Assembly: GCA_903956845.1 (NCBI GenBank)
Contig: CAJBOO010000272.1
Span: forward strand, 1 to 34,809
Direction of reading: 5' to 3'
Source: an uncultured Burkholderiales bacterium
GTDB lineage: Bacteria > Pseudomonadota > Gammaproteobacteria > Burkholderiales > Burkholderiaceae_C
Length of the DNA stretch: 34,809 nt
Shown here one piece after another: positions 20,317-33,608 of the stretch. The notes beneath the pieces were generated by a model that worked only from the letters and a program-made list of their open reading frames with translations, was not told the DNA's origin and did no database searches. A program made the position numbers and the translations under genes. Positions within the stretch are counted from its first letter, which is position 1; each line of letters begins with the position of its first letter.

Positions 20317-21447
20317 TTACGCGGTACGCAACTCGTACTTGTTGATCTTTTCGATCAAGGTGGTGCGTTGCAAATTCAGCAGCTTGGCGGTTCGAGACAC
20401 ATTGCCTTGAGAGCGTTCCAAGGCTTGCTCGATGATGTTGCGCTCAATTTCAGCCAGCCGGTCTTTCAATGACAAGCCTTCGGGCGGCAAGTGCGGCATG
20501 CCTTGCGCCAACATGATGATGCTTTCTATCTCGTTGTCTTGCGGCTCAGGCTGGTCTGTCATCCACGCATCGGATGCTTGCGCGCCATTCATTTCAGCCA
20601 AGACTTCTGGTGGTGGCGTCATCTCTTGTGTTTGCACCACGGGTCCACTGCGAAGCAACATCTCCGCTTGAATCGGTACCAAGCCTTTGGGCAACAAGTT
20701 GGCAGGGATGGCTCGCAGGTCCAAGATTTGACCAGGGTAGAGGGTGCTGAAGCGGTCCATGAGGTTGCACAACTCACGCACATTGCCGGGCCAGGGGTAG
20801 TTCACCAGGGCTTCTAAAAAGTCAGGCGAAAAGCGAACGGCTGGGCCTTTGGGGAGTTTGTAGTGTTCTGCGTAAAACCGAAGCAACTCAGCGATGTCCT
20901 CAGGGCGTTCACGCAAGGGTGGTGTGACCACAGGCAGCACATTAAGCCGATAGTACAAGTCTTCGCGAAAGCGACCTGCTTGGATTTCGGCTTCTAAATC
21001 GCGGTGTGTGGCGGCAATGACACGCACATCGATGGGAATCTGACGGGTAGACCCCACAGGGTCGATCACACGCTCTTGCAAAACACGCAGCAACTTGACT
21101 TGCATGTCCAAGGACATGTCGCCAATTTCATCCAAAAAGATGGTGCCACCATGGGCCAATTCGAAGCGACCGATGCGGTCGGCAACCGCGCCAGTGAAAG
21201 AACCTTTGCGGTGACCGAAAAGTTCGCTTTCAAGCAGTTCTTTGGGGATGGCTGAGCAGTTAATAGGTACAAAGGCGCCACCAGCGCGGTCAGATTGCTC
21301 GTGCAATGAACGCGCCAACAGCTCTTTGCCGGTGCCACTTTCGCCGGTGATCATGACCGTGGCGTTGGAGTTGGAGATGGTGGCTACCAGCCGACGCAAG
21401 GCTTGTGCGATGGGGCTGGTACCAATGAAAAATGATTGCGATTTCAT
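20317..21447 (-). CDS. FleQ-type sigma54 activator lacking an N-terminal domain
   Basis: Bacterial enhancer-binding protein that would use ATP to open sigma54 promoters. From the ATG at 21447 it has 376 residues: an AAA+ domain directly at the N-terminus (about 5-235) with Walker A GESGTGKE (35-42), the sigma54-contacting loop GSFTGA (82-87; usual GAFTGA), Walker B GTIFLDEIGD (101-110) and REDLYYRLNV; then a linker and a Fis-type helix-turn-helix ending in AKLLNLQRTTLIEKINKY, a sequence characteristic of FleQ/FlrA regulators. The roughly 130-residue FleQ or receiver domain is missing, so it has no visible signal input. A TTG at 21492 would add 15 residues. Its position suggests that it controls the sigma54 sites seen here. 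Confidence 0.9.
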   Translation of the reverse strand: MKSQSFFIGTSPIAQALRRLVATISNSNATVMITGESGTGKELLARSLHEQSDRAGGAFVPINCSAIPKELLESELFGHRKGSFTGAVADRIGRFELAHGGTIFLDEIGDMSLDMQVKLLRVLQERVIDPVGSTRQIPIDVRVIAATHRDLEAEIQAGRFREDLYYRLNVLPVVTPPLRERPEDIAELLRFYAEHYKLPKGPAVRFSPDFLEALVNYPWPGNVRELCNLMDRFSTLYPGQILDLRAIPANLLPKGLVPIQAEMLLRSGPVVQTQEMTPPPEVLAEMNGAQASDAWMTDQPEPQDNEIESIIMLAQGMPHLPPEGLSLKDRLAEIERNIIEQALERSQGNVSRTAKLLNLQRTTLIEKINKYELRTA

Positions 21448-21495
21448 GCTTGATGCATTGTCGCTCAAGGTCTGAGCCTGGCAAGCCGTCAAAAG

Positions 21496-21621: not shown

Positions 21622-22167
21622 ATGATTTACCGAATTGTTCTGGGCTCGATGGCCTTGGCTTCATTGACCGCTTGCGAGGCCATTCGTCCTTACGCAGCCA
21701 CACCCGCACCCGTGGTGTCAGTCGCCGCGCCTGCTTCTTCATCCATCAACAAAGCGGCACCCAGCAATGCCGCTGAGCCAGCACCGGCTTCCATGATCAC
21801 CCCGATGATGGACAAGCGTGAGACTTACGTGGCCACAGGCTATGCGGTCATCAGCGTACAGAACCATAAAAATGCTGCTCAGCAACGCTTGCTCGCCATC
21901 CGCGCCTCCAAGTTGGATGCCTACCGCGCATTGACCGAGCAGGTGTATGGCCAACAGTTGGACGCCAACACCACCGTGGCTGACATGACCGTGATGAACG
22001 ACACCTTCCGCACCCGTGTGGAAGGCGTGATTTACGGCGCTCAATTGGTGAGCATCACCCCTGTGGGCGACGACACTTACGAAACCACGTTGTCACTCGA
22101 CCGCAATTCTGTGCAAGATTTGCGCATGCTGTACCTGACACAAATCGCTTCACGCACCACCCGTTGA
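21622..22167 (+). CDS. flgP: FlgP-like outer-membrane lipoprotein (LPP20 family)
   Basis: A 181-residue lipoprotein: signal peptide with lipobox LTAC (acylated C18), an Ala/Pro/Ser-rich tether (20-55), and an LPP20-type domain (about 65-175) with AAQQRLLAIRASKLDAYRAL, EQVYGQQLDANTTVADM and VEGVIYGAQLVSITPVGDD. These match FlgP, which in Vibrio and Campylobacter forms outer-membrane-associated disks or H-ring parts around the flagellar P/L rings. AGAGGA precedes the ATG. The next gene is FlgT-like, supporting the assignment; a third partner, FlgO, is not seen. LPP20 proteins also have other roles, so the name rests partly on context. Confidence 0.82.
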   Translation: MIYRIVLGSMALASLTACEAIRPYAATPAPVVSVAAPASSSINKAAPSNAAEPAPASMITPMMDKRETYVATGYAVISVQNHKNAAQQRLLAIRASKLDAYRALTEQVYGQQLDANTTVADMTVMNDTFRTRVEGVIYGAQLVSITPVGDDTYETTLSLDRNSVQDLRMLYLTQIASRTTR

Positions 22168-22192
22168 TTCGTTTCAGAAAAGACACTGCATC

Positions 22193-23248
22193 ATGCGCTC
22201 GCCATTCCGTCTGCTGACTTGCCTGGGTGCCTTGGCATTGGCCACCGCACCTGCTTGGGTGATTGCAGATCCGTTGAGCGCAGAAGATCGCTTGGAAGCC
22301 ATTCGACAGTCTTTGGTGCAGCATGCCATGCAAGGCCCGACAGAGGTCAGGTCTGCTGCTTTCATCGATGGAACGGGTGCTCTACGCGAAGCCAGCAGTT
22401 TCGTGACTGGCATGGAAATCCGTGGCATCCGAGTCATCGCATATGGTCGAGACATGGATGATGTCAAAGCGGACAGCAAAAAAGCTTTGCCTTTGGGTGG
22501 CTGCCCAGCCGCTGACAAGTCGGGTGCGTGGCACCACATCAGCTGGCAAGTGGCTTATTCGGCCCACATGCCTGTGGCCTATCAATTTGAAGCCCAGCAA
22601 ATCGCTTTGCAATTCAAGCAACAGGCCTTTCGACGCGCTCAAGCCTCTGCCCTGTGGCGACTGGTCGAGCCCAAGAGCGTGGCGGACGGCTATGAACAGG
22701 TCTTGGTGGGACAAGGCGAGAAAAACATCCCGTGGCAGCTGAAATTGACCATCGCGCCCAGCATGGCCGCAGGTTTGCCACGCACTTCAGCCTATGACGT
22801 GCGTTGGGAGTTGCAATCCAAATGGAATGGCGCCACTGTGTTCGCCGCAGAACAAAAAATCAACATCGACCAACCTCGGTTGGTACCTACCTCCAGCCGG
22901 CCCTTGGGACCGGTGGTCCTCGCCCAAATTCAAGCGGCGTTGGCTGGTTTTTCACAAGGCATGGAGCGTGAGCTGTCATGCCGCGTCCCCCAGTTCGAGG
23001 TGGTGAAAGTTCGCACTGACCTGGTCCGCATCGCCGGAGGTGCAGCCAGCGGTTTGAAAGTGGGCGCACGCATGGTGTTGACCGACAAATCCAAGCTGCC
23101 TTCACGTGCCCTTGAACCCAAAGCGCTTGACAGCCTCGCCATGGCCGAAGTGGTGTCTGTCAGTGACTATTACGCAGAATTGAAAATGAAAACGGCTGGC
23201 AAAATTCCAGATCCTGCGAGCTGGATTGCCATTCCCTACATGCCTTGA
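22193..23248 (+). CDS. flgT: FlgT-like periplasmic flagellar assembly protein
   Basis: A 351-residue secreted protein with a Sec signal peptide (residues 1-25, ending AWVIA). The N-terminal part (about 28-115) starts with DRLEAIRQSLVQHAMQ and contains SSFVTGMEIRGIRVIAYGRD, resembling the FlgT N-domain. A middle domain (about 115-245) follows, and the C-terminal part (about 265-350) has the beta-rich FEVVKVRTDLVRIAGGAASG and LKVGARMVLTDK pattern of the FlgT C-domain. In Vibrio, FlgT builds the H ring around the basal body. The position directly after the flgP-like gene agrees. Divergence is high, so the assignment is good but not certain. Confidence 0.72.
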   Translation: MRSPFRLLTCLGALALATAPAWVIADPLSAEDRLEAIRQSLVQHAMQGPTEVRSAAFIDGTGALREASSFVTGMEIRGIRVIAYGRDMDDVKADSKKALPLGGCPAADKSGAWHHISWQVAYSAHMPVAYQFEAQQIALQFKQQAFRRAQASALWRLVEPKSVADGYEQVLVGQGEKNIPWQLKLTIAPSMAAGLPRTSAYDVRWELQSKWNGATVFAAEQKINIDQPRLVPTSSRPLGPVVLAQIQAALAGFSQGMERELSCRVPQFEVVKVRTDLVRIAGGAASGLKVGARMVLTDKSKLPSRALEPKALDSLAMAEVVSVSDYYAELKMKTAGKIPDPASWIAIPYMP

Positions 23249-23268
23249 CGAGTTGAAGGAGCATCCCT

Positions 23269-23922
23269 ATGAAATCCCCCAAAGCCAAATACGTTGTCCC
23301 TGTTGCATTGTTGCTCCACGGCTTGGTGAACATGGCCTGGGCGCAAGAACCCAGCAAGCAGCCCCCCTTGGAATTGCCCAAGACCATGGCCCAACTGGAT
23401 GCACCCAAAGCCTCTAATGCGCCTGAAGAAAAAGAAAAACCCAAGGCCGCACCTGTCAAAAAAGCCAAACCAGTGGTCACAGAACCCCTGGCTGACATGG
23501 CCACGGATCCTGCCAAAGAGCAGATGGTCTTGCCAGAGATGGGCACGTACAAGGTCAAGGCCGGTGACACGGTTGACCGCGTGATTCAAAAGTTTTATGC
23601 CAGCAGTCCTTTGCGCAGCGACGTGTTGCGCAATGCCTTGGTTCAAAGCAATCCCAAAGCGTTTGTCAAAGCCAACCCCAAGTCATTGATTGCCGGTGCT
23701 GTGCTGGTGTTGCCCGACCAAGCTGAGTTGGTCAAAAAGCTCATGCCACAGTTGGCACCCGTGGCGCCAGAACCAGGCTCTGTCAGCACATCGGTTGCCA
23801 ACGCCACGCCTGCCGTGGCTGCGCCCAGCCTGCCCGCACCTGTCGGCGGCGCTGCTGCCCACCATGCAGGGCACAATCCAGGCACAGAATCCAACAAACG
23901 CCATTGGGTGCGTTACCCCTGA
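23269..23922 (+). CDS. secreted LysM/FimV-like protein
   Basis: A 217-residue exported protein with a Sec signal peptide (cleavage probably after AWA, residue 25). A Lys/Pro/Ala-rich stretch (45-70) leads to one LysM-like domain at about 93-150 (GTYKVKAGDTVDRVIQKFY ... LIAGAVLVLP), whose spacing is closer to the FimV N-terminal LysM than to a classical cell-wall LysM. The C-terminal 65 residues are Ala/Pro-rich and probably disordered, ending in a basic segment. It sits between flgT-like and fliK-like genes with short gaps, so a role in anchoring flagellar periplasmic structures to peptidoglycan is likely but inferred. I know no named family for it. Confidence 0.82.
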   Translation: MKSPKAKYVVPVALLLHGLVNMAWAQEPSKQPPLELPKTMAQLDAPKASNAPEEKEKPKAAPVKKAKPVVTEPLADMATDPAKEQMVLPEMGTYKVKAGDTVDRVIQKFYASSPLRSDVLRNALVQSNPKAFVKANPKSLIAGAVLVLPDQAELVKKLMPQLAPVAPEPGSVSTSVANATPAVAAPSLPAPVGGAAAHHAGHNPGTESNKRHWVRYP

Positions 23923-23959: not shown

Positions 23960-25087
23960 ATGCTCGGTGCCGAGATTGTTTCCGCTGCCAATCGCATCAC
24001 GCCAGTTGCCCTGGAGAGCCGAACCATGTGGGTGCAAACCCCGGTGGCTCAACAACTGGGTTTGCGGGATGGGCAAATTGTCCAAGCCGTCGCCGAAGTC
24101 AGAGACCAGCGGGTCCGTTTATGGTTGAAAGACTTTTTCTTTGAATTGCCCAATGGCTGGGTGCTCAAAGACGGTGACAAACCCTTTTTACGGGTGAACC
24201 ACAACGCCAGTGGCTGGGGCTTCTTGATACAGGCCTATCCGACAGGCCAAACATCCACCGCCACCCCTGCCGCCGCCAGTTTTGGGTTGCAGACTGCACA
24301 AGACTTGCATGCATCCGAAGCACGTAACGCGAATTTGGGCATGCTTTTGACGCAGCCTGCAGGCTTTGCCAGTTTGGCGAAATTGCTCAATGACATGCGA
24401 ATGGGGCAGTGGCCTGTTCAAGGTGAGATGTTCAATCTGGTGCAACGCTTGCTGCAGCAGCGCAGCATCATGGCTCAGATGAACCCCATGATGCTGAAAA
24501 AAGCGGTGATGGGGCAGGCCCGCAGCCTGGAAAACGCCTTGTCGCTGGGGGAACCCCCTGGGGAAGATGCCAAGACCATCATGAAACAGATGATGGCCTT
24601 GCTGCAAGATGCGTCCACGGAAGGCGTCAGCAAAGAACAATCCCGCGAATTGGAGTCTGCCCTTCGGGAGTTGGAATCTGCGCAAGTCCAAAGTGCGCAA
24701 AAGTGGCTCAGCGGTGAGCTGTCACTGCATGTGGTGTTGCCATTTGTGGATGCCGATCCGGTCGACCTGCACTTTCAACGCGCACCCCGCAAGCCTGGGC
24801 AAGAAGAGCCCCCCTTGAGTGTCGACATCCATTCCCGCAGTCGGATGTTGGGCGAAATTTGGCTCAACACCGTCATCTCCAAAAACACCAGTGTGGACTT
24901 GGTGATGTGGGCCCTCAGAGGCGAGGTGGCCACGCTGGCGCGAGAGCGTTCAGGCGAACTGGGTCTGGAGTTGGGTGCGGCGGGTTTGCAGTTGCAAACC
25001 TTTCAAATTTTCAATGCCCCCAGACCCTTGGTACGGGCCGGAGAAGCCTCTGGTACCCGTGGCTCGGTGATTGACACGCGAGCTTGA
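23960..25087 (+). CDS. second FliK-like protein (Flg_hook C-terminal domain)
   Basis: A 375-residue cytoplasmic protein with no signal peptide. The N-terminal half (1-100) contains APVAQQLGL-like and LKDFFFELPNGWVLKDGD segments of unknown fold; the middle (about 110-240) is helical and Met/Gln-rich. The C-terminal part (about 245-360) resembles the FliK Flg_hook domain: LSGELSLHVVLPFVDADPVD, LGEIWLNTVISKN, and VATLARERSGELGLELGAAG. The partner gene encodes an FlhB C-domain 12 bases downstream, the same pairing as ylqG-ylqH in Bacillus. AAGGA lies eight bases before the ATG. This is separate from the main fliK at 9897-11549. Confidence 0.8.
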   Translation: MLGAEIVSAANRITPVALESRTMWVQTPVAQQLGLRDGQIVQAVAEVRDQRVRLWLKDFFFELPNGWVLKDGDKPFLRVNHNASGWGFLIQAYPTGQTSTATPAAASFGLQTAQDLHASEARNANLGMLLTQPAGFASLAKLLNDMRMGQWPVQGEMFNLVQRLLQQRSIMAQMNPMMLKKAVMGQARSLENALSLGEPPGEDAKTIMKQMMALLQDASTEGVSKEQSRELESALRELESAQVQSAQKWLSGELSLHVVLPFVDADPVDLHFQRAPRKPGQEEPPLSVDIHSRSRMLGEIWLNTVISKNTSVDLVMWALRGEVATLARERSGELGLELGAAGLQLQTFQIFNAPRPLVRAGEASGTRGSVIDTRA

Positions 25088-25099
25088 AGGACGGACCCC

Positions 25100-25387
25100 A
25101 TGAAAGCACCCTTTGAAGCCGTGGCGCTGGAATATGGCCAACAAAAAACACCCCGCGTGGTGGCCAAGGGCCAAGCTGAATTGGCCATGCGCATCTTGCA
25201 AGAGGCCAAGAAGCAAGGCATTTATGTCGCTGAGGACCCGCAATTGCTGGCCTTGTTGAGCAAGTTGGATGTGGGCGATGAGATCACGCAAGACATGTAC
25301 ACGGCCGTGGCGGTGATTTTGTCTTGGGTTTATTGGCTCAAGGGCATGCAGCCCGGGGACGAAAAAAAAACCACTCAAGAAACATGA
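25100..25387 (+). CDS. FlhX, stand-alone FlhB C-terminal (FlhBCC) domain
   Basis: A 95-residue protein equal to the small cytoplasmic domain of FlhB after its self-cleavage point. It reads FEAVALEYGQQKTPRVVAKG where FlhB has the segment following NPTH; the later GIYVAEDPQLLALLSKLDVG and LYxAVAxVL-like MYTAVAVILSWVYWLKG also match. The NPTH cleavage motif itself and all membrane helices are absent. In other bacteria such FlhX proteins can partly replace the FlhB domain in export switching. The end of the frame, including nine A bases at 25362-25370 and the last codons, doubles as the terminator of the opposing flgMN unit. Confidence 0.88.
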   Translation: MKAPFEAVALEYGQQKTPRVVAKGQAELAMRILQEAKKQGIYVAEDPQLLALLSKLDVGDEITQDMYTAVAVILSWVYWLKGMQPGDEKKTTQET

Positions 25388-27160: not shown

Positions 27161-28321
27161 ATGAACTTCAATATTGATTCCAAGGCACTCGTTAAAACAG
27201 CTTTTGTCAATCCAAATGACCAAACAAAAGCGGTGAGACAAACCACGCCCATGGTGCCTGGTCGGGTGGGCTTTGCCCAAACACTGGCGCAGTTGCAAAG
27301 CAGACACACTGTCAATTCGTCGACGTTTTTGAATCCGCAGGTACCCAGCGTGGCGGTTCAAGAGGGCGATACCCTCAGCAGCATGGTGAAAAATCACATG
27401 GAGGCGATGGGCAAACCCATCAGCAACGCCGAGGCTTTGCGTTTATCGCAAGACCTGGCCAAGGCCAATGGCATCAGCAACCCTGACCGCATTTACCCAG
27501 GCCAGCGCCTGAACATGGCTGTACTCAACACCAACATCTTGGCCAACACACCCAACACGGCTGCCATGAAACCCAACGCGGTGGCCAACACTGCCTTGGC
27601 CATGAACCAAGCCGGTCAGGTCAGAACACCCTTTGCCCAGCGACCTGCGGTATTGAATGGCAGCCACCCTGTGTTGGAAAAAACATTGGACAGGGCTGTT
27701 GCTAAAGGGTTCATTCCCCCTCAAGAAAAACAGATGGTGTATGAAAAAATACTCACCATGTCTCGAACCTATCAGTTTGCGCCGGATGATTTCGCCCGCA
27801 TGACACTGATGGAAAGCGATGGCATGAACCCCAAAGCCAGCAACAGCCGTTGTCACGGCATCATCCAGTTTTGCGATGGACCAGACCGGGGGGCGGCCAG
27901 CGCAGGCTTTGGCAGCAACCCCAAAGCCATCTTGGGTCACAGCGTGTTGCAGCAACTGGACATGGTTGCCAAGTATTTTGATGAAACAGGTCTCAAGGGG
28001 ATGGGCCCCACCAGCTTGGACGACCTGTACCTGACGGTTTTGACACCTGCCGCGCGCAGCGTGAAGGCCCCAGATGCGCACCTGAACATCGCCGGCACCC
28101 AAGCCAAGCAGTTGTACGTCAACCGTGACAAGAGTGCGCCGATCACCCGCAACTCGATCATGCAAGGCCTGTATCAAAACGCGATTGAACGCCTGAGTAA
28201 GTTCGACCACAGTCAATCAGTGGCCCAGGCCAATGGCACCCCGTCGGCCAATGCGACGCCAGCCAACCGAGCACAGGCACTCAGGGTCAGTGCCTATTTG
28301 AACCAAGACTATTTGCGCTGA
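27161..28321 (+). CDS. LysM plus lytic-transglycosylase-like flagellar cell-wall hydrolase
   Basis: A 386-residue protein with a LysM domain at about 64-120 (VQEGDTLSSMVKNHM ... DRIYPGQRLNM) and an SLT-like domain at about 165-350. The catalytic-glutamate motif is MTLMESDGMNPKAS (E218), followed by CHGIIQF, the usual G-[LI]-[IM]-Q-F element of goose-type or Slt transglycosylases; a distal TVLTPAARS segment also fits. No Sec signal or lipobox is visible: the start is polar. Rod assembly needs local cell-wall opening, usually by FlgJ, so export through the flagellar apparatus is plausible but inferred. It lies between flgA (divergent) and flgB. Two cysteines (C231, C238) flank the active-site loop. 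Confidence 0.85.
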   Translation: MNFNIDSKALVKTAFVNPNDQTKAVRQTTPMVPGRVGFAQTLAQLQSRHTVNSSTFLNPQVPSVAVQEGDTLSSMVKNHMEAMGKPISNAEALRLSQDLAKANGISNPDRIYPGQRLNMAVLNTNILANTPNTAAMKPNAVANTALAMNQAGQVRTPFAQRPAVLNGSHPVLEKTLDRAVAKGFIPPQEKQMVYEKILTMSRTYQFAPDDFARMTLMESDGMNPKASNSRCHGIIQFCDGPDRGAASAGFGSNPKAILGHSVLQQLDMVAKYFDETGLKGMGPTSLDDLYLTVLTPAARSVKAPDAHLNIAGTQAKQLYVNRDKSAPITRNSIMQGLYQNAIERLSKFDHSQSVAQANGTPSANATPANRAQALRVSAYLNQDYLR

Positions 28322-30068: not shown

Positions 30069-33000
30069 ATGTCCTTTTTTACCTCACTCACAGGTCTGAA
30101 TGCAGCCACTGCGCAGTTGGGCGTCACGTCCAACAACATTGCCAACGCGAGTACCGTTGGTTTCAAGCGCAGCCGTGCTGACTTTGGTGACATTTTTGCC
30201 ACCTCACCTTTGCAAAAGGCGACATCGACCATTGGTCAAGGTGTGTCTTTGAAACGTGTGACCCAAGAGTTTGGCCAGGGCAACATGAACTTCTCGTCCA
30301 ATACCTTGGACTTGGCGATTTCAGGCGATGGTTTCTTTCCTTTGAAATCGGGTGACGGCTTTCAAGACATTTTCACGCGCAATGGCTCATTCATGATGAA
30401 CGACCAATACAACGTGGTGAACTCGGCCGGTCAGCGTTTGATGGCGGCGTCGGTTGACTCGACCGGTAAAGCCAACCTGAGCGACATGAACGTGTTGACT
30501 ATTCCACAAAAGACAACCGGCATGGCCAAAGAAACATCTTTGGTGCAGCTGGGCTTGAATTTCCCGGCTGACGCGCAAGTGGTGACCACCGCTTTCAACC
30601 GCAATGACCCCGCGACTTACAACAAGAGCACTGCCTTGACCGTGTATGACAAGGGTGGCAATGGTTACTTGGCCACGGTTTACTACGCGAAAACCCAAAA
30701 TGCGAGTCAAGCAGACCCCAACAACAAATGGCAAACCTATGTGTATGTGGGTGATACCTTGGTGGCCGCCGCGCTGCAACAAGCCACCGACACCACAGGC
30801 GAGCCTTTGTATGTGAACAAATACGGTCAACTCAAGCCTGAAAGTGAAGTGGGCGACTTGTTGGTGAATGCGAAAACGCAAAAGTTTTCACTGAACCAAT
30901 TGACTGATCAACGCACGTCAGAGCCTGCCACCGTGACCGGTGGCAAGACCGCGGTCAACTTGACCACTTTGAACCCGATCAACTTTGAAAATTACTCCTC
31001 TACACAGTTGGCCAGTTTGTTCAGCATCGATGTCGATGGTTCTGGCTCTCCGGTGAGCGTGGGGTTGGAAAACCTGGCGGGTAAGCCCTTGAAACTCTCT
31101 GGGACGGAAGTGGCCAAAGAATTGACCAACGTGTTGAACCGCAAGTTTGGCGACGAGCGCTACTTCAACTTTGGCTCTGACAAGCAAGAAAACTTTCAAA
31201 TTGGCGTGACCAACACCGATGGTTCGATCGAGTACCGCAACATCCAACTCGACACCGCCAACATGACCTATGAGCAAGTGGTGGACAAAATCAATGGCCA
31301 GCTTGGCAGCAGTGGCGTGGTGCTGTCGAACGTGGCTTTCTCGACCATCCCTGCGCAAGCTGATTTCACCAATTACTCTTTCACGCTGACAAACAGTGCA
31401 GGAACGACTTCGACCCTGGAGGGCATGATCACTTGGCCAGCCACAACGCTAAGTCAAGTGCCCATGGAAGATTTGGCAACGGGTTTGCAAAACAGCATTC
31501 GCCAACAGTTGCAAAAAGCAACAACTGCCACACCCCCTGGATTGGCCATGTCTGCAGAGGATGCAGCCAAAATTTCTGTGAATGTGCAAAACGGCAACGA
31601 GATTCGCATCAACGATGCCGCGGGCAATACCTTGGGCGCTTTGAGCTTGTTCAAAGGGGGCAGTGGCAGCACGCTTGGCACCACCGCAGCCACGTCGACT
31701 TCCGGTGTGTCTATCGTTGCATCGACAACCACGGCAGGTGTCCCCAGTGCCAGTTCACTGACCTTGTCCAACGTGACCATGGAGACCTTGAAACCCAATG
31801 CCAGCGGCACGGGCACGATTGATCCAGGCTTCACCTCGTTCGACCTCACCATTGGCTCTGTGGCCGCCAGTAACCGCGTGGTTATTTCTGGCGAATCGCT
31901 GGGCTTGATTGTGGGCAATTCGCCCATGGAAGACTTGGCCGCCCAATTGAAGTCCAAGATCCAAAATTACCTGAAGACCAAGGCTTCGCCTGTGTGGACC
32001 GAGGCTGCAGCTAACAAAGTCCAAGTGGCCGTGGTCAATGGCAAAGACATCAAGATCACCGACAGCGGTGGCAATGTGTTTGAAGGTTTCACCTTGAACA
32101 AGTCCGGCACCACCACCAGCACCGTGTCAGCAGGCGGTAAAAACCTGAGCTATGGCCCCATGGCCAACCAGGTCAAGGCCAACTATGACCCCGCGACACA
32201 GCAGTTTTCATTTGCACCTGTGGTTGCTTCCAACGTCATCTCGTTGATCGGTGTCAATGAGCAACTGGGTTTGACGGGTTACACAGAACAAACCGCTGGC
32301 AGTGACTCCCTCAATTCCTTGGGCTTGCCACTGTCGACCAACGATTACATCCGTCCTTTCAAATTGCAGCGCACAGGTTTGAAGGTGGAGTACGACACCG
32401 TGAACCAAAAATTCGTGTTCAAGTCGGGCACCACGGGTGACAACTCCAGCATTGCCGTGTCCAACCCCAGTTCCTTTGCCACAGAAAACTTTGGCTTGGC
32501 AGCAGATGGTCAGTACGAGGTGAAAACTTCCCAAACCGCTTTGCGTGGTTTGCAGTCCAACCCGGCGATCATGACCGGTTCGCCCATGGGCATCAACCCG
32601 GGCAATAACTTCAGCGTGGACTTGACCAACAACCGTTTTGTGGTGTCTGTGGATGATGTAAAAGGCACCGTGGTCCTTGAGCCCAAAAGCACTTACACGA
32701 TTGACAGCTTTGTCCAGGCTTTACAAAACGGCATCAACAACTTGGCAGGCCCGCCAGACCAATCTGGTTTGACTGGTTCCACGGTCAGTGGCGTCAAAGT
32801 GTCTTACGACTCTGCCACCAACAGCTTGAAATTCACCACGGGCACGGCGTCCTCCAATTCGTTCATCAAGGTGTCTGGCGATACCCAATGGGGTCTGTCC
32901 AATTCAACGGGTGCTCGTGGATCCAGCTCCACTTGGGTCAAACCTACGCAGTACACCCAAACGGTGAATGGTGTCCAGGTGGCTCAGTACATCGATGAAT

Positions 33001-33608
33001 TCGGTAAAGAAACATTCAGCCCTGACGGCTTCAAAGCATTGCCCGAGTGGTCACCGATCTTCTTGGAAAAAGGTGAATTGACCTTTGACACCGGCGGTAA
33101 CTTGGTGTCACCTAAGCAGGGTTCCCAGTTGGACACGGTTTACCTGCCAGACGGTAAGGGCGCGTTGACCATCAACATCAACTACTCCAAATCAACGCAG
33201 TTCTCTTCACCTTATGCCGTGTTGTCACAGTCGCAAGACGGTGCACCTGAAGGTGACTTGGTGGGTTTGTCGGTCGGTGACGACGGTTTGGTGAATGCCT
33301 CTTACTCCAACGGATCGCAAAAGTCCTTGGGCAAGGTGGTGCTGGTCAACTTCTCCAACCCCACCGGTTTGCGTCAGATTGGCGACACCAGTTATTACAA
33401 ATCCTCTTCCTCTGGCTCAGCTAAATACGGTGAGGCTGGTTCGGCCGGTTTCGGCACGGTGCGAGCCGGTGCGACCGAGCGGGCCAACGTGGACTTGACG
33501 CAAGAGTTGGTGGATTTGATCACCGAGCAGCGTAACTTCCAGGCCAATGCCAAAGCGATTGAGACCAGCACCACGCTGACCCAATCGATTATTCAAATCC
33601 GAGCGTAA
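30069..33608 (+). CDS. flgE: FlgE, flagellar hook protein of unusual size
   Basis: Subunit of the universal joint between rod and filament. It has 1179 residues; about 400-450 is common. The ends are standard: N-terminal TGLNAATAQLGVTSNNIANA with STVGFKRSRADFGDIF, then ISGDGFFPLKSGDG, and C-terminal LTQELVDLITEQRNFQANAK with AIETSTTLTQSIIQIRA. The extra length is in the surface-exposed middle (about 330-960), rich in Ser, Thr, Gly and Asn, with repeated helix-plus-beta units that resemble flagellin hook-IN motifs (around 347-420, 465-560, 619-700 and 877-945). Reading frame is intact with no sign of frameshift. Confidence 0.95.
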   Translation: MSFFTSLTGLNAATAQLGVTSNNIANASTVGFKRSRADFGDIFATSPLQKATSTIGQGVSLKRVTQEFGQGNMNFSSNTLDLAISGDGFFPLKSGDGFQDIFTRNGSFMMNDQYNVVNSAGQRLMAASVDSTGKANLSDMNVLTIPQKTTGMAKETSLVQLGLNFPADAQVVTTAFNRNDPATYNKSTALTVYDKGGNGYLATVYYAKTQNASQADPNNKWQTYVYVGDTLVAAALQQATDTTGEPLYVNKYGQLKPESEVGDLLVNAKTQKFSLNQLTDQRTSEPATVTGGKTAVNLTTLNPINFENYSSTQLASLFSIDVDGSGSPVSVGLENLAGKPLKLSGTEVAKELTNVLNRKFGDERYFNFGSDKQENFQIGVTNTDGSIEYRNIQLDTANMTYEQVVDKINGQLGSSGVVLSNVAFSTIPAQADFTNYSFTLTNSAGTTSTLEGMITWPATTLSQVPMEDLATGLQNSIRQQLQKATTATPPGLAMSAEDAAKISVNVQNGNEIRINDAAGNTLGALSLFKGGSGSTLGTTAATSTSGVSIVASTTTAGVPSASSLTLSNVTMETLKPNASGTGTIDPGFTSFDLTIGSVAASNRVVISGESLGLIVGNSPMEDLAAQLKSKIQNYLKTKASPVWTEAAANKVQVAVVNGKDIKITDSGGNVFEGFTLNKSGTTTSTVSAGGKNLSYGPMANQVKANYDPATQQFSFAPVVASNVISLIGVNEQLGLTGYTEQTAGSDSLNSLGLPLSTNDYIRPFKLQRTGLKVEYDTVNQKFVFKSGTTGDNSSIAVSNPSSFATENFGLAADGQYEVKTSQTALRGLQSNPAIMTGSPMGINPGNNFSVDLTNNRFVVSVDDVKGTVVLEPKSTYTIDSFVQALQNGINNLAGPPDQSGLTGSTVSGVKVSYDSATNSLKFTTGTASSNSFIKVSGDTQWGLSNSTGARGSSSTWVKPTQYTQTVNGVQVAQYIDEFGKETFSPDGFKALPEWSPIFLEKGELTFDTGGNLVSPKQGSQLDTVYLPDGKGALTININYSKSTQFSSPYAVLSQSQDGAPEGDLVGLSVGDDGLVNASYSNGSQKSLGKVVLVNFSNPTGLRQIGDTSYYKSSSSGSAKYGEAGSAGFGTVRAGATERANVDLTQELVDLITEQRNFQANAKAIETSTTLTQSIIQIRA
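31323..32204 (+). repeat. diverged tandem repeat coding for the FlgE middle domain
   Basis: Two units of about 147-154 codons. Unit 1 begins LSNVAFSTI (L419) and has PMEDLATGLQ (465); unit 2 begins LSNVTMETL (L566) and has PMEDLAAQLK (619). Both continue with a helix and then NVQNGNEIRINDAAGN or VVNGKDIKITDSGGN. Identity is visible at protein level only. Confidence 0.75.

Follow-up and report, generated by a model that had tools for sequence, protein, structure and literature searches.

The stretch of DNA analysed here (the window) is 34,809 nucleotides long and corresponds to contig CAJBOO010000272.1 (C272) of assembly GCA_903956845.1, an uncultured Burkholderiales bacterium whose 2.42 Mb draft genome consists of 283 contigs and is 98% complete. 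The window carries a flagellar gene cluster, and three adjacent genes of this cluster encode an FlgP lipoprotein, a very divergent FlgT, and a putative secreted protein with one LysM domain, hereafter the third protein. These genes head an operon, flgP-flgT-LysM-fliK-flhX, that is fixed in the Limnohabitans lineage. Constraint on the third protein is strongest at its C-terminal tail, W-V-R-[YF]-P, which was overlooked in the initial annotation of the window and which, in a similar form, also ends third proteins that have no LysM domain. We give about an even chance to a periplasmic scaffold in which the third protein is a tether, its tail seated on a FlgP/FlgT ring and its LysM domain serving in one lineage as the peptidoglycan anchor. 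Loci, genomes, and families of relatives are denoted by L, G, and f numbers, and papers are cited by PMC number for the parts of their text that were available.

FlgP, FlgT, and the third protein

The initial annotation had read three open reading frames (ORFs) here, which were confirmed close together on the plus strand, and had taken the first two for a lipoprotein of the LPP20/FlgP type and a FlgT-like protein, homologues of Vibrio H-ring subunits. Pfam, profile, and fold comparisons agree with that assignment. Pfam LPP20 (PF02169) matched the window FlgP over the cut-off (E 6e-7), and a five-row FlgP profile searched against the PDB retrieved the FlgP chain 8z5n_2 of the LPHT-ring structure at E 1e-19. 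An LTAC lipobox occupies residues 15-18 of FlgP, and a simple lipobox pattern was found in 68 of the 80 rows of relatives. Of the three proteins, FlgP is the most strongly conserved, with 60-70% identity to the window protein in four syntenic family members.

The window FlgT shares just 26-29% identity with its syntenic relatives. As a single sequence it had no match in Pfam or NCBIfam, and a single-sequence FlgT scan of the genome contigs found nothing. A profile of five homologues gave four matches at E<=10 among 177635 distinct PDB sequences, all of which were FlgT, with the C-terminal domain aligned at weak E values of 0.003-0.1. An AlphaFold model computed from 74 rows had a predicted local distance difference test score (pLDDT) of 81 and a predicted template modelling score of 0.68. 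When this model was searched with Foldseek, 8z5n_0 ranked first (E 3.5e-14) and 3w1e, which is FlgT of Vibrio alginolyticus (PMC12222027), ranked second (E 1e-13), the next match having an E value of 9e-6. VIA-align superposed 8z5n_0 at Z 16.9 (223 residues, 3.6 A) and 3w1e at Z 14.8 (249 residues, 5.5 A), followed by the next structure at Z 10.0. The middle and C-terminal domains are clear in the model. The N-terminal domain is poorly predicted: 3w1e aligns from residue 36, yet residues 73-76 and 78-100 fall under pLDDT 50. The agreement of the three tests (profile, Foldseek, and VIA-align) confirmed that the second protein is a very divergent FlgT, and a non-FlgT fold was not found for this 351-residue protein.

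Named loci of relatives were obtained by scanning a one-genome-per-species collection with the FlgP alignment, and the best 80 of 292 confirmed relatives were used. The closest belong to Comamonadaceae and Limnohabitans metagenome genomes and isolates; the window FlgP and that of L079 are 98% identical over 120 trimmed columns and 90% identical over the whole protein. The source bacterium is accordingly placed in or near Limnohabitans. The order flgP-flgT-LysM-fliK-flhX, on one strand, is kept in all 80 loci as far as each extends, with five genes present in 66 loci, four in 4, three in 5, two in 3, and flgP alone in 2. In 75 loci flgT is followed by the LysM gene, and the remaining five break off no more than 410 bases past flgP or 225 bases past flgT.

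The third protein is putatively secreted, according to a signal peptide that we read by eye. Outside a single LysM domain at residues ~90-152, its structural model is of low confidence; this domain aligns to known LysM domains at Z about 5-6 with a root-mean-square deviation of about 2 A. In addition, a third-protein profile (A6, 65 rows) matched LysM proteins in the PDB, the best at E 6e-5. The initial annotation had called the protein FimV/LysM-like; the LysM part of this description holds, and the FimV part does not. NCBIfam FimV_core (TIGR03505) gave a partial match at E 7e-6, with 25.7 bits against a cut-off of 43.45, and a separate FimV-core gene over the cut-off was present in four of the eight genomes tested (G080, G092, G124, and G447), with none in the window genome. 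On these two sequence comparisons, the third protein is judged not to be FimV.

The last residues of the third protein, rather than the LysM domain, are its most conserved stretch. In the 72 complete proteins, W stands fifth from the end and P last without exception; the fourth position from the end is V in 71, the third is R in 63, and the second is Y in 37 or F in 35. Two residues ahead of the tail W, every one of the 72 has R or K. Among the 75 LysM proteins of the named loci, 71 match the pattern W.{1,5}[YF]P$ and the remaining four are truncated at contig ends; no other ORF among the 7949 (>=40 aa) of these loci matches it. The strict tail pattern occurred 96 times among 15258 distinct ORFs from 289 sources, and 94 of these occurrences were in the third gene; when the last 12 residues were shuffled, 7 occurrences remained. 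The two matches outside the third gene are short chance ORFs, one of 41 aa and one of 57 aa in a FlgO locus. In f18, the proteins of L239, L243, and L244 bear the tail plus one or two extra residues and were missed by the strict pattern. L176 is broken by a masked stretch. In 30 FlgT loci of other orders, which reach ~1.5 kb either side of the matched domain, the tail was seen only in one 41-aa ORF. None of the C-termini read at FlgO loci ends in the tail, a weak result given that several of the 30 frames were misread with the gene on the opposite strand.

Distribution and LysM-free relatives

Among 150 genomes of the family, FlgT was detected in five, and the same five have a close FlgP and match the profile of the third protein at E<=8e-22, a strict co-occurrence in this sample. 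A sixth genome, G123, has two distant FlgP matches (27-29%). At E<=1e-3, weak matches included, the third-protein profile had hits in 121 of the 150 genomes; most of the weak ones fall in long frames, often of ~900 aa, and were taken to be FimV. Nine in-cluster loci of f13, f18, and f19 carry the LysM form. Close FlgP is rare, being present in 16 of 399 family genomes and 5 of 141 genera; G1047, which belongs to the genus of the window, is without FlgP, and any LPP20 match was found in 54 of 399 genomes of the order. The initial annotation had proposed a betaproteobacterial variant of the motor scaffold and suggested co-occurrence as a check. The three genes do stay together in the lineage, but by these counts the arrangement is not general in Burkholderiales.

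Other families of the order carry flgP-flgT at other places, and 31 such loci, mostly of 12-13 kb each, were examined. No BLAST match to window flagellar proteins other than FlgP was found among the neighbours in 30 of them; the exception, L162 (f51), lies near a flhX-like gene. Twelve of the 54 LPP20-positive genomes of the order, from f25, f30, f43, and f44, were left out (nine with two to four LPP20 matches and three with one under the cut-off), and the FlgT profile had no match in six loci from these families. L252 is cut before FlgT.

In 12 of the 31 out-of-cluster loci, a short protein with a signal-peptide-like start adjoins flgP-flgT and ends in W-x-x-Y-[ST]-[YF]-P. This LysM-free tail protein was present in seven of ten loci of f5, three of four of f33 (the fourth is cut), and two of three of f15, and in none of those of f28 (0/12), f51 (0/1), and f21 (0/1). 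The LysM profile found none of the 12 proteins, and that of L167, the sole one scanned with Pfam, had no match. Their alignment keeps little beyond the start, which is the signal-peptide region, and the tail.

The FlgT proteins of the two kinds of loci also differ. Pfam FlgT models were silent on the window FlgT and on those of the in-cluster loci L175 and L177, and PF16538 was silent in the whole window genome, whereas all eight out-of-cluster FlgT proteins scanned matched Pfam FlgT models, seven of them FlgT_M over the cut-off. Therefore, the in-cluster FlgT branch is the divergent one.

A quick tree of FlgP (66 rows, long branches) gathered the LysM form in one group with a support of only 61, and placed tail-only loci and loci with no third gene on the opposite side. 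L195, a long-branched locus of another order, fell on the side of the LysM group, only five rows from other orders being placeable. The tree fits an old tail with a single gain of LysM, but it also fits loss of LysM or separate origins.

FlgO had been reported as missing from the window, and the result extends further: the FlgO model had no match in the whole window genome or in any of 14 LysM-lineage genomes, and the third protein itself did not match FlgO. The same model matched in 5 of 31 other FlgP-positive Burkholderiales and in 15 of 20 FlgT-positive genomes of other orders of the same class; these 20 are the same-class genomes among 44 that are FlgT_C-positive. MotY_N matched in none of 18 FlgP-positive Burkholderiales, including the window genome, and in all 6 controls, which were taken from those 20. 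The window stator is nearest to MotA1 at 293.5 bits, just under the cut-off of 303.8, and that of L009 is over the MotA1 cut-off. In L010 (14518-16699) and L177 (8637-10817), stators that are nearest to PomA, under its cut-off, stand where the window has the MotA1-like one. The operon therefore sits beside both kinds of stator.

A proposed scaffold and its alternatives

In the scaffold that we propose, the three genes would encode an outer-membrane-linked periplasmic structure of the H-ring kind around the flagellar L and P rings. The FlgP lipoprotein would form a disk under the outer membrane, and FlgT would form a ring on the basal body. The tail of the third protein would dock on the FlgP/FlgT ring, or on the L ring held by it, FlgP, FlgT, and FlgH being the candidate partners; the flexible linker would reach down, and the LysM domain would grip peptidoglycan. 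The resulting cell-wall anchor would be comparable to the role thought for MotY in Vibrio, and such a structure may affect torque or the insertion of the flagellum.

The similar tail at the end of LysM-free proteins indicates a constrained function that is independent of LysM. This bears on the possibility that the third protein is a small polarity factor of the FimV/HubP kind, which would act outside the ring, its LysM domain finding polar peptidoglycan so as to place or number a polar flagellum. The resemblance of its LysM domain to FimV, the location of most weak profile matches in presumed FimV frames, and the presence of flhF- and fleN-like genes upstream in the cluster (ORFs read by eye) are in keeping with such a role. 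However, the third protein is 217 aa long, its model shows no confident fold beyond the single LysM domain, and half of the genomes tested have a FimV-core gene of their own, though the window genome does not. We therefore regard a polarity factor as unlikely. It is also quite improbable that the third protein helps to open or shape the wall for the rod and the P and L rings as the partner of a hydrolase, for example the product of 27161-28321, with the tail as the ligand of the enzyme. A LysM domain without an enzymatic domain and the second LysM protein between flgA and flgB would suit this role, but the LysM-free tail protein adjoins flgT where there are no flagellar neighbours, which indicates that the third protein tracks FlgP/FlgT and not the hydrolase. 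Finally, the tail might be a mere signal for export, sorting, stability, or folding that docks on no ring, since it is C-terminal, short, and invariant and the remainder of the protein outside LysM is of low confidence in the model. A general signal should be commoner, whereas apart from the two chance ORFs this tail ends no other ORF of the examined loci, which are the scope of that count rather than whole genomes; this explanation is held to be unlikely.

Several observations weigh against the tether itself. As a single sequence, the third protein had no Pfam family at E<=1, LysM (PF01476) included; Foldseek gave no match to it at E<=0.001, and its alignments to LysM folds score modestly (Z about 6). 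Of the 31 out-of-cluster flgP-flgT loci, 18 showed no third gene and one more is cut by a contig end, so that some FlgP/FlgT pairs do without it. The tails WVR[YF]P and WxxY[ST][YF]P are similar but not identical in sequence, so their common descent is not proven. Two further members of the operon, fliK and flhX, do not encode ring parts, so membership in it proves nothing by itself, and the contact of the third protein with the ring is a step that we infer. Moreover, a tail protein and FlgO coexist in G472. The initial annotation had placed the LysM protein in the position of FlgO; LysM is indeed the third gene of a lineage-wide operon, but a replacement of FlgO is too simple an account in view of G472 and of the missing match between the two proteins.

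With these points in mind, we offer only tentatively, as somewhat short of an even chance, that Burkholderiales H-rings have a third class of subunit that is absent from what is known of Vibrio and Campylobacter. It would be a modular tether in which an invariant aromatic-proline peptide at the C-terminus, the plug for the FlgP/FlgT ring, is kept and the other end is exchangeable, being no more than a flexible arm in some families and, in the Limnohabitans lineage, a peptidoglycan-binding LysM domain of the FimV type.

Gene context, known systems, and significance

Features of the operon and its divergent neighbour in the window
Feature	Position	Strand	Basis
flgP, lipoprotein with LPP20 domain, expected basal-disk/H-ring subunit	21622..22167	+	181 aa; PF02169, 8z5n_2, lipobox
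flgT, divergent, putative secreted (read by eye)	22193..23248	+	351 aa; fold and profile matches
Third protein: putative signal peptide, low-confidence linker, LysM (~90-152), low-confidence linker, C-terminal tail	23269..23922	+	217 aa
Tail H-W-V-R-Y-P directly before stop codon	23902..23919	+	W and P in 72/72 complete LysM third proteins (window and 71 named loci)
fliK-like (hook-length control), next in operon	23960..25087	+	Flg_hook E 0.014, below cut-off; homologue at same place in 70/80 loci, other 10 end early
flhX-like (stand-alone FlhB C-terminal domain homologue), last of five	25100..25387	+	PF01312 E 1e-16; TIGR00789 E 2e-21, below cut-off; in 66/80 loci
Sigma-54-dependent regulator, divergent neighbour of flgP; context, no ring part	20317..21492	-	NCBIfam best E 1e-103, all below cut-off

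The sigma-54-dependent regulator adjoins flgP in 78 of the 80 named loci, the remaining two being cut. A sigma-54 promoter upstream of flgP was considered and dropped: the best window site scored 15/21, and a shuffle p<0.05 was reached in 13 of 78 loci at scattered positions. The stand-alone FlhB C-terminal-domain protein is a steady member of the operon directly 3' of the fliK-like gene. Between flgA and flgB lies a second LysM protein (386 aa), which is syntenic in relatives, in which Pfam sees only LysM, and which may be a flagellar peptidoglycan hydrolase. The gene at the flgE (hook) position, 30069-33608, encodes 1179 aa, and its counterpart in the relative L009 (G087) encodes 794 aa; usual hook proteins are shorter than 1179 aa. 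L138, on contig CALQKH020000002.1 titled Akkermansia muciniphila, bears a Limnohabitans-type flagellar cluster, and the record is probably mislabelled.

The adjacent FlgP and FlgT homologues, with a FlgT model that fits 8z5n and 3w1e, recall the Vibrio H-ring (FlgO, FlgP, FlgT) and T-ring (MotX, MotY). The Vibrio FlgT and FlgP function in passage through the outer membrane and in assembly of the stators, and the scaffold is likely anchored to peptidoglycan by MotY (PMC7990780). Unlike the Vibrio motor, the window genome has no FlgO or MotY match, its third gene encodes a LysM tail protein, and its stator is nearest to MotA1 and not to PomA. Neither FlgP and FlgT nor an H-ring lacking a T-ring is new: the Fla1 H-ring/basal disk of Cereibacter (Rhodobacter) sphaeroides has FlgT and FlgP and a proton-channel stator but no MotX/MotY, and FlgT builds the H-ring there and has FlgH and MotB among its interaction partners (PMC7277832). 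The extra part there is, in contrast, MotF with a transmembrane segment, and the available text of that paper mentions neither a LysM nor a tail protein. The Campylobacter basal disk (FlgP, FlgQ) likewise has an FlgP with an SHS2-like fold under the outer membrane (PMC12222027), whereas epsilonproteobacteria are described in the accessible part of PMC5758724 as being without FlgT. FimV/HubP polar landmarks have a periplasmic LysM domain of similar type, and that of FimV binds peptidoglycan in Pseudomonas putida (PMC12918733); the third protein differs from them in its 217 aa, its WVRYP tail, and its lack of the membrane and cytoplasmic parts that the available text of the same paper gives for FimV.

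Hylemonella gracilis has a periplasmic ring whose constituent proteins are called unknown in the portions available of PMC5758724 and PMC6096493, and its flagellinolysin gene is described beside NUDIX and MarR genes (PMC7643111). In G964 (L287, 6006-9285), flagellinolysin lies between NUDIX and MarR genes in the same way, and this genome is presumably Hylemonella. G964, whose inclusion in the sample we infer, is not among the 16 FlgP-positive genomes, and G014, of the same genus, has no FlgT, FlgP, or LysM match. The identity of the window genes with the H. gracilis ring is therefore probably to be rejected, and that ring may differ in composition. In the open-access literature, which was the main field searched, no account of betaproteobacterial FlgP/FlgT was found, nor of a third part with a LysM domain or such a tail; a review that names FlgT and betaproteobacteria treats, in its available text, sheathed flagella there and not FlgT (PMC7175336).

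Periplasmic scaffolds help to set the number of stators in the polar motor and the crossing of the outer membrane by the flagellum, and their known parts come mostly from Vibrio and Campylobacter. The window presents a compact FlgP-FlgT core which, by gene content, lacks FlgO and MotY and stands beside a MotA1-like stator. The accompaniment of H-rings by sodium stators is a rule stated for Gammaproteobacteria (PMC6375700), from which a MotA1-like stator beside H-ring genes departs, as Cereibacter already does. The tail is a five-residue handle that is directly testable. Taken together, a freshwater bacterium probably bears the genes for a Vibrio-like support ring of the flagellar motor, and the third protein probably ties this ring to the cell wall.

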